From Verrucomicrobiota bacterium (GTDB taxonomy: Bacteria > Verrucomicrobiota > Verrucomicrobiia > Verrucomicrobiales > Verrucomicrobiaceae), in assembly GCA_026397605.1 (NCBI GenBank), contig JAPLUM010000770.1:1-40603 (forward strand): a DNA stretch of 40,603 nucleotides, read 5' to 3'. The notes under the pieces are model-generated. The model made no database searches, had not been told where the DNA came from, and saw nothing but the letters and a program-made list of their open reading frames with translations. This document shows, in pieces, positions 5,924 to 17,941 of the stretch. A program made the translations under genes and the position numbers. Every line of letters starts with the position of its first letter. Within the stretch, counting starts at the first letter, position 1.

Positions 5924-6667
5924 TTACTTCAGGTATTTTGCCAGATCCCGCATCGAGATCACCGTGCAGCCTTCGTCTTTGAGATGCTGCATGTAGCTCT
6001 CAAACTTCGCCGGATCAGTGTTCACCCATGGGTGCTTGATGTCCGGCACGCCGTGAAAGGTCATCACCGCGATCTTCCCATCCTTCGCCTCTGCCACTGC
6101 GGCCTTGAACTGCTCCAGCGTGCTCTCCGGCTTGCCATCAAAAGCCTGCGGCATCAGCAAAGGCTCATCACTTGCTGGATCGAAGACCTTCGCACCTCCC
6201 GCCCGCGCGAACTGATAACCCCTCTCGCTCAGCAGCTTCACAGCCGCCTCGCTCGTCGCATACCCAGGGTAGCAAAAGCTCACTGGCTTCGTGATACCGT
6301 ATTTCTCACACTGCTGCTCGATGTGCTCCACATCTGCCGCTAGCTGCTCCAGTTTCTGCTTCGCCACAGCCGCGTGTTTTCGCGTGTGATTGCCAATCTC
6401 AAATCCATCTACATGCAGCGCCTGGATCTGCTCCCAGGTCATGTAGTGAGTCTTATCCACGAGGAACTCAAAGCCCTCCGTGATGAAGAACGTGGCTCCA
6501 AACCCATGCTTCTTCAGCAGCGGTGCCACATAGTTCGCCTGACTCACCACCGAATCATCAAACGTGAGCACCACCAGCTTATCCGGCACCGGTTCGGCGG
6601 CAAACAAACGCCAACAAAGAACCAAGGTAATGCAGGCGAAGGACATAGCGGCAGAAAAGGCTTTCAT
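5924..6667 (-). CDS. Polysaccharide deacetylase family protein
   Basis: [30 protein letters not shown]...[10 protein letters not shown] (NodB domain). Start [10 protein letters not shown] preferred. Confidence 0.93.
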
Positions 6668-16475: not shown

Positions 16476-17231
16476 ATGTCACTCCTCCCCATCGCCCTAG
16501 ACGCAGCCACACAGGCAGGTCTGCTCATCAAAAGTAATTTTGGCTCCGATCTCACGGTTAATGAGATGCAGCGTCATGACATCAAGCTGGAGCTGGATGT
16601 GCGCAGCCAAAAGCTCATCACAGAAATCATTCTGAAAAATGACCCTACGCATGCCATCCTCGGCGAGGAAGAGGGCGACATCGGCGGAGATGGTGATGTG
16701 GAGTGGATTGTCGATCCCATCGATGGCACAGTGAACTATTATTTTAATATCCCGCACTTCTGTGTCTCTATTGCAGCGCGGAATCGGCAGACCAAGGAAA
16801 TGATCCTCGGTGTGATCCATGATCCGATGATGAATGAAACCTGGAGCGTGGTGAAGGGCGGCCCGCCAATGCTCAATGGCAAACCCATCTCCGTGAGCCC
16901 CCGTGAGACAATGGCTGAAGCTGTGGTCACCGTCGGCTTTTCGAAGAGCAAATCAGCCCTGGACGCAGGTTTCGAGCGCTACAAACGCATTGCTTATGAT
17001 GTGCGGAAAACGCGCATGCTCGGCAGTGCTGCCCTTGCTTTGGCTTACATTGCCTGTGGCCGCCTTGATGCGTATGTGGAGGAGCAAATCAGCCTCTGGG
17101 ACATCGCCGCAGGCGTCATGCTTGTGGAAGCAGCAGGTGGCAAAGTCAGCACCTCCCCGAGCACGGTCAAACCAGGCACCATGTTCATCTGCGCTTCAAA
17201 CGGTAAGCTGCCGATTGAACCCTACCTGTAG
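16476..17231 (+). CDS. Inositol monophosphatase family protein
   Basis: LGEEEGD, EWIVDPIDGTVNYYFNIPHFCVSIA, ISLWDIAAGVMLVEAAGGKVS. Confidence 0.94.
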   Translation: MSLLPIALDAATQAGLLIKSNFGSDLTVNEMQRHDIKLELDVRSQKLITEIILKNDPTHAILGEEEGDIGGDGDVEWIVDPIDGTVNYYFNIPHFCVSIAARNRQTKEMILGVIHDPMMNETWSVVKGGPPMLNGKPISVSPRETMAEAVVTVGFSKSKSALDAGFERYKRIAYDVRKTRMLGSAALALAYIACGRLDAYVEEQISLWDIAAGVMLVEAAGGKVSTSPSTVKPGTMFICASNGKLPIEPYL

Positions 17232-17239
17232 GGGGACGG

Positions 17240-17343
17240 GAGCCGTTTACCATTGTTGACTGTGGTTCACGATAGTTGACCGTTGTTTGCAGAGGCTCCT
17301 GTCTTTCAAACCATCGTCAACAACAGTCAACCACTGTAAACAA
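17240..17343. repeat. Inverted array of degenerate 10-bp repeats (GTTnACnnTn) in a convergent intergenic gap
   Basis: Plus strand 17246-17291: GTTTACCATT|GTTGACTGTG|GTTCACGATA|GTTGACCGTT|GTTTGC. Reverse complement of the 3' arm: GTTTACAGTG|GTTGACTGTT|GTTGACGATG|GTTTG. GGAGCC (17240-17245) also pairs with GGCTCC (17295-17300). Confidence 0.8.
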
Positions 17344-17353
17344 CACCCACTTC

Positions 17354-17941
17354 CTATCCTTTCTTCCTCAGTACCCGCAGCCGTTCTCTACCGACACGGC
17401 CATCATAGCCGACATCAGGCACGCGGTCTTCGATGACCTGCCAGCGTGATTCGTCAAAAAGCGTGCTGAGTTCAGAGACTGAGATGCCAAAGGGCGGGCC
17501 GCTTTCGTCGGGGTCCATCTCGGGATTGATGAACCAGATGCCGACGATCTGACCGCCGGGCTTCAGGAGCTGATGGGCCGCAGTTTCATAACGCGTGCGC
17601 CATTCGGGCGGCAGTGCGCAAAGGCAGGTGTGCTCAAAGATAAAATCAAAGCTTACCTGCCACTCCGCAGAGGTCGCAAAAAGGTCACCCAGGACAAAGC
17701 GGTTCTTTTGATCAGGATAAGCCGCATGGGCCATGGCAATAGCCGTCGGAGCAATGTCTAGACCATAGGCATCAAGACCTTTTTCCACCAGCATGGCCAC
17801 ATCATGCCCGACGCCGCAGCCAGGAATCAGGGCGCGACCTTGAGGGCGGTTTTGCAGAACCCACTCGAGCATGGGTGGGGATGGCAGTCCTTTATTCCAG
17901 GGGGTGTGGCCGTCTTGATAGTTTTGTTCCCAATCGGTCAT
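17354..17941 (-). CDS. SAM-dependent methyltransferase, thiopurine methyltransferase (TPMT)-like
   Basis: NYQDGHTPWNKGLPSPPM...RALIPGCGVGHDVAMLVEKGLDAYGLDIAPTAIAMA. Confidence 0.92.
   Translation of the reverse strand: MTDWEQNYQDGHTPWNKGLPSPPMLEWVLQNRPQGRALIPGCGVGHDVAMLVEKGLDAYGLDIAPTAIAMAHAAYPDQKNRFVLGDLFATSAEWQVSFDFIFEHTCLCALPPEWRTRYETAAHQLLKPGGQIVGIWFINPEMDPDESGPPFGISVSELSTLFDESRWQVIEDRVPDVGYDGRVGRERLRVLRKKG

Follow-up and report, generated by a model that had tools for sequence, protein, structure and literature searches.

Inverted decamer arrays between genes of Verrucomicrobiaceae and their link to S23/IVP genes

The window analyzed here, a whole stretch of 40,603 nucleotides from a member of the Verrucomicrobiaceae, contains an inverted pair of arrays of a degenerate 10-bp unit. 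On one side the pair faces the stop codon of a gene of the inositol monophosphatase family, and on the other that of a TPMT-like methyltransferase gene (gaps of 13 and 12 bp, respectively). What kind of element is this? A sequence-only reading of the locus had offered a protein-binding array, a terminator, or a mobile repeat. We consider it probable that the copy in the window belongs, as an ORF-less (MITE-like) member, to a family of IVS-like selfish elements, and it looks like the solo ends of one of them, either left over or stripped down. The locus is organized as follows:

16476-17231, plus strand: flanking gene of the inositol monophosphatase family (PF00459, 3e-52), stop 13 bp before the left array
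17238-17244, plus strand: GGGAGCC ahead of the left array; Brevifollis arrays are also commonly preceded by GGGAGCC
17245-17290, plus strand: left array, four decamers and GTTTGC (GTTTACCATT/GTTGACTGTG/GTTCACGATA/GTTGACCGTT/GTTTGC)
17291-17306, no strand: apex between the arrays, 16 bp, holding GAGGCTCC, able to pair with GGAGCC at 17239-17244
17307-17341, minus strand: right array, three decamers and GTTTG (read from 17341 to 17307: GTTTACAGTG/GTTGACTGTT/GTTGACGATG/GTTTG)
17354-17941, minus strand: flanking gene of a TPMT-like methyltransferase (PF05724, 1e-28), stop 12 bp from the right array

Both arms read as the sequence-only reading had described them, and the decamer array is real and no product of chance. 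With up to one mismatch, a two-unit pattern matches the whole window seven times, six of them in the array, where 0.22 matches are expected; none of 100 dinucleotide shuffles of the window reached seven. A lone two-unit match (GTTGGCGTTTGTTTGC, 6600-6615, minus strand) lies near a gene start and may be chance or a remnant. The long imperfect hairpin that had been proposed is feasible both as DNA and as RNA (-40.6 and -48.8 kcal/mol, z -3.0 and -4.4 on the two strands), and the competing GGAGCC/GGCTCC pair was likewise found (17235-17244 / 17294-17303).

A family of arrays in short intercistronic spacers

The sequence-only reading had hinged on further arrays and a retained 10-bp phase, and both are present: arrays of the consensus GTTKRCNRTK form at least 17 clusters in the window's own genome, and the phase is kept across the many arrays found elsewhere. 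Arrays of three units (with the A/G pattern at position 5) were sought in 142 genomes of the order, a sample composed of drafts and metagenome assemblies; 26 genomes carry them, every one from a single family, and 0 of 99 genomes from the order's other families do. The positive genera are that of the window and three others of the same family (Prosthecobacter/Brevifollis group), with records that include Prosthecobacter, Brevifollis gellanilyticus and Verrucomicrobiaceae; the few single matches in unrelated phyla are roughly at chance level. Array counts were controlled by dinucleotide shuffles and the control counts of the genome search, as reversed sequence is unusable because the consensus read backwards again resembles the unit. 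Curated RNA families in Rfam gave only chance-level matches outside the array, and a literature search that covered few subscription journals found neither decamer arrays in Verrucomicrobia nor arrays flanking four-helix-bundle genes.

Most of the 259 distinct arrays have four to five units, the fifth often being a GTTT half unit of the apex. Their polarity is inward: an opposed partner array within 150 bp lies downstream (convergent) 154 times and upstream (divergent) twice. Across the genus, positions 1-3, 6 and 9 of the decamer are near-invariant, as the sequence-only reading had stated, whereas position 5, which it had counted among them, is A or G, with most elements carrying one flavor across both arms; position 4 is T or G, and positions 7, 8 and 10 vary. 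Class A comprises inverted copies as in the window, filling short spacers, and class B comprises single arrays (Brevifollis) in long spacers. Behind many of these single GTTKRC arrays stands a second decamer array, GATCCGAGTC AATCCGACTG GATCCGACCT (L121, L122, L133, L137 and other Brevifollis loci in G005).

Several variations were seen. A module, TTCGTCCTTCGCAGAATGCTTCGGAGAATGGATT, interrupts decamer arrays at four loci (L038, L125, L130, L132), and inverted arrays of another decamer, CATTCGTGTT, adjoin a D-Tyr-tRNA deacylase gene about 200 bp apart (L375:510-540 and 738-768). Adjacent units differ from each other above shuffled-order expectation at positions 4, 7, 8 and 10 (z about -2.5 to -5), while units two apart are more alike. 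Long runs of about ten or more near-identical decamers (G019:C5:465938-466023, G019:C16:19000-19110, L382:1024-1183) resemble slippage expansions. Not all copies are intergenic, since some arrays fall inside long reading frames (L033:316-365, L035:1568-1617, L378:1535-1574).

The inverted copies sit flush in short intercistronic spacers, mostly between co-directional genes. Counted with a simple purpose-made gene caller and once per species for orthologous junctions, so that some are repeated, class A neighbors are co-directional in 54 cases, convergent in 9 and divergent in 8. A marker of convergent genes, put forward for checking by the sequence-only reading, is thereby rejected as a rule. 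Gaps of up to 250 bp hold 55 of 71 inverted copies vs 19 of 81 single arrays (Fisher 2.5e-11, shared ancestry ignored). In 69% of cases, the spacer exceeds the element by no more than 60 bp, while gaps that short hold only 4.6% of intergenic bp, and between co-directional genes the element begins a median of 8 bp after the stop and ends 12 bp before the start.

Sites are gained or lost. A given junction is occupied in up to eight species, and at the pgk-tpiA and dapB-folK junctions (which we take to be these genes from reading the encoded proteins) some species carry the element, others have a spacer of 9-44 bp, and still others retain just one unit or a single arm. At the window's own junction, one relative (G003) retains about one unit and another (G010) none, with phosphatases that are 97-98% identical. 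Comparison of window positions 16476-17941 with L279 and L281 shows an odd contrast, the phosphatase being 97-98% identical between species and the methyltransferase only 67-82%. Inherited copies also drop whole units (20 bp in G013 vs G002) or add them, as at G000:C762 with its run of at least eight identical units. The movement of ORF-less copies was not directly caught, because no target-site duplication was recognized by eye in filled vs empty sites, whose spacers are too diverged, and the ORF-less copies included none that were identical and recent.

Constraint on the unit and on the fold

Among inherited copies, motif positions change about three to five times less often than variable ones. 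Between orthologues identified via the neighboring gene, the rate of change was 0.04 at positions 1-3, 6 and 9 vs 0.21 at positions 4, 7, 8 and 10, in counts that enter each orthologue pair in both directions and in which the use of positions 1-3, 5 and 6 for finding units lowers their rate up to twofold. Position 9, which played no part in picking units, changed in 1 of 65 cases vs 50 of 195 at positions 7, 8 and 10. One orthologous pair (L164:1086-1237 and L235:3834-3972) has switched flavor in nearly all units (position 5 going from A to G in the left arm and from T to C in the right arm) with the order of position 4 in the left arm retained, i.e., a concerted change.

No in-register covariation of the arms was found at positions 4, 7, 8 and 10, and a hairpin kept by compensatory change was rejected on these negative tests. 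Apparent covariation at position 5 reflects the element-wide flavor and is present in slipped registers too, and the apex half-units may have inflated an inner-anchored signal (z 2.9). The fold tests reveal no selection for a particular RNA stem over and above the effect of the shared motif: in 53 co-directional copies the sense transcript folds worse than the antisense (-41.2 vs -45.0, p 0.002), sense wobbles are not clearly in excess among discordant pairs (18 vs 12 at position 5, with the opposite trend at 7 and 8), and permuting units leaves fold energy unchanged (p 0.34). The terminator of the sequence-only reading was not borne out, as an intrinsic terminator is rejected by a stem without a T tract and neither folding nor wobble shows a sense-strand bias.

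Class B arrays retain the motif without an inverted partner. This, together with the absence of RNA-stem selection in the fold tests, favors recognition of the unit itself, although recent common origin could mimic part of the pattern. The protein-binding array that had been left as a possibility is compatible with a constrained motif that single unpaired arrays keep and with arms that do not covary in register.

S23/IVP genes between inverted arrays

We know of no function for S23/IVP proteins, which to our knowledge are usually discussed only for rRNA inserts. Where two GTTKRC arrays lie 0.5 kb apart, the reading frame between them is a clear member of PF05635 (2.5e-33), with 2gsc as the closest solved structure (2e-21). 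Such a frame is absent from the window copy with its 16-bp apex and present between GTTKRC arrays elsewhere, including the window's own genome (G000:C885). PF05635 genes as such were found in all 23 genomes searched within the family, and array type is tied to one IVP subfamily: GTTKRC arrays bracket 20 of 20 genes of at least 68% identity, 19 with both arms above threshold, and 0 of 6 more distant relatives (43-60% identity). In two genomes (G018 and G047), the IVP arrays are built of a drifted unit of the form GTTGAGC, and weak arm scores suggest a similar drift in a third (G051). Of 32 array-positive genomes, 20 hold the subfamily, vs 0 of 17 array-free ones (Fisher 9e-6, shared ancestry ignored), which leaves 12 array-positive genomes without it.

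Nineteen of the 20 genes follow one isomerase-like gene (PF01261) at a single orthologous junction, and for the GTTKRC type the IVP link may therefore be one old event. The twentieth unit (L485, in another genus, g16) is at a second, non-orthologous junction, flush between another gene and what we take, from reading the protein, to be a dapL-like gene; a stop codon interrupts the frame of this copy.

PF05635 genes outside this subfamily have, in these genomes, inverted arrays of different short repeats on their flanks (for example GAGACAATGA, AAGTTTC, GTTCTTG, GTGGGACAGT and GTCTTAATCCGT). Judged against dinucleotide shuffles, inverted flanks occur at 37 of 48 IVP loci, chosen as the best-scoring ones, and at 5 of 98 ordinary genes; Y1 transposases likewise show them (11 of 19) via their own terminal repeats, and a phylum sample outside the family has them at 17 of 26 IVP loci. 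At non-orthologous loci, arm type follows IVP clade (Mantel rho 0.30 vs a maximum of 0.17 in 300 permutations). At two loci of one genome (G016), the array-IVP-array core reaches 93-100% identity, against only 68-78% in the paralogous genes on either side, as expected if an array-IVP-array unit had moved or been converted. Filled and empty orthologous sites and the tie to PF05635 genes support the mobile repeat that the sequence-only reading had listed among its options.

Competing explanations and known systems

The reading that we favor, an ORF-less member of an IVS-like selfish element family, takes the following form. A complete member consists of an array of about four 10-bp units, an S23/IVP gene (PF05635) and a second, inverted array, about 500-620 bp in all and flush between cistrons; gene-less copies of about 90-140 bp far outnumber complete ones and occupy similar places. 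The association and the turnover are observations; beyond them, we infer that the machinery of the element, perhaps the IVP protein, recognizes the decamers as phased sites (10 bp, one helical face), and that ORF-less copies either spread in trans or arose via internal deletion. In the transcript, the arms could pair into a long hairpin with interruptions, which may be cleaved, much as RNase III cleaves rRNA IVSs, or may be tolerated. The single class B arrays with their different right flank misfit this two-arm plan.

It seems unlikely that these are instead REP/ERIC-like interspersed palindromes unrelated to IVP, propagated by the host or by themselves, and that one IVP gene landed once within such a palindrome at the isomerase junction and was then inherited along with it. 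Such a history would account for the 19 of 20 IVP cases at one junction, for arrays far more numerous than the IVP gene and for the 12 genomes that hold arrays without a gene of the subfamily, but not for the whole unit at the second junction, nor for other IVP clades carrying their own inverted arrays of a type that tracks the clade. We think it improbable that the element is an RNA hairpin beneficial to the host (a terminator, mRNA end protector or processing site selected between cistrons): both strands fold well and the location is flush between cistrons, with a given junction filled in up to eight species, yet empty sites are frequent, the T tract is absent, the sense strand folds worse without a clear wobble excess, the fold is indifferent to unit order and the arms do not covary in register.

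More improbable still is a double-stranded DNA array bound by a nucleoid or regulatory protein of the host. The 10-bp phase, the near-invariant and constrained positions and the motif of unpartnered single arrays would suit it, whereas AC and GC flavors share one genome, whole elements switch in situ (L164 vs L235), copies are freely lost, and the IVP link would be left unexplained. A MITE of a Y1 (RAYT/TIRYT) transposase is very unlikely. Although the genus has many Y1 transposases and RAYT/TIRYT elements are considered to mobilize palindromes elsewhere (PMC3733652), we rejected this candidate because a decamer array was present within about 1.5 kb at 0 of 20 Y1 loci, the four loci inspected have their own, different inverted repeats, and counts do not track arrays (27 Y1 matches and no arrays in G011).

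Beyond this family, we tentatively entertain, as a possibility rather than an expectation, that S23/IVP four-helix-bundle proteins are sequence-specific partners of very widespread small mobile elements ended by inverted arrays of short degenerate tandem repeats, with a clade-specific unit, and that many anonymous intergenic short-repeat arrays of environmental bacteria are their solo ends. If so, S23/IVP proteins would gain a DNA or RNA target, a common and so far unexplained type of intergenic repeat would be explained, and a class of mobile elements would be defined that occupies intercistronic spacers and lacks an obvious transposase.

Among known systems, MITEs are similarly short and gene-less with inverted ends and a larger gene-bearing relative, unlike the decamer elements, for which both a transposase and a target-site duplication are unseen. 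BIME and ERIC sequences occur as many short extragenic imperfect palindromes per genome whose presence varies between species. The same likeness holds for REP and REPIN-RAYT palindromes (PMC3733652, PMC3116915). These palindromes differ from the arrays here, which are inverted 10-bp units in diverged rather than near-identical copies, were free of RAYT association at the Y1 loci examined (0 of 20 flanked) and, in their consensus, carry neither GTAG nor CGTC as a fixed tag.

The closest known kind is the IVS of 23S rRNA, which has complementary ends and, in many cases, an S23 frame and is excised by RNase III, e.g., the 428-444 nt IVS of Coxiella burnetii (PMC4990558). We do not claim membership, since the location differs: the window copy and its complete relatives lie between protein-coding cistrons instead of inside 23S rRNA. 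Most copies here are ORF-less, including that of the window, and they end in phased arrays whose repeats are short and degenerate, unlike the one nearly perfect repeat of IVS ends. What the two share is a PF05635 gene between inverted repeats in the complete relatives, a similar size (about 500-620 bp here) and inverted terminal repeats able to form a long stem.
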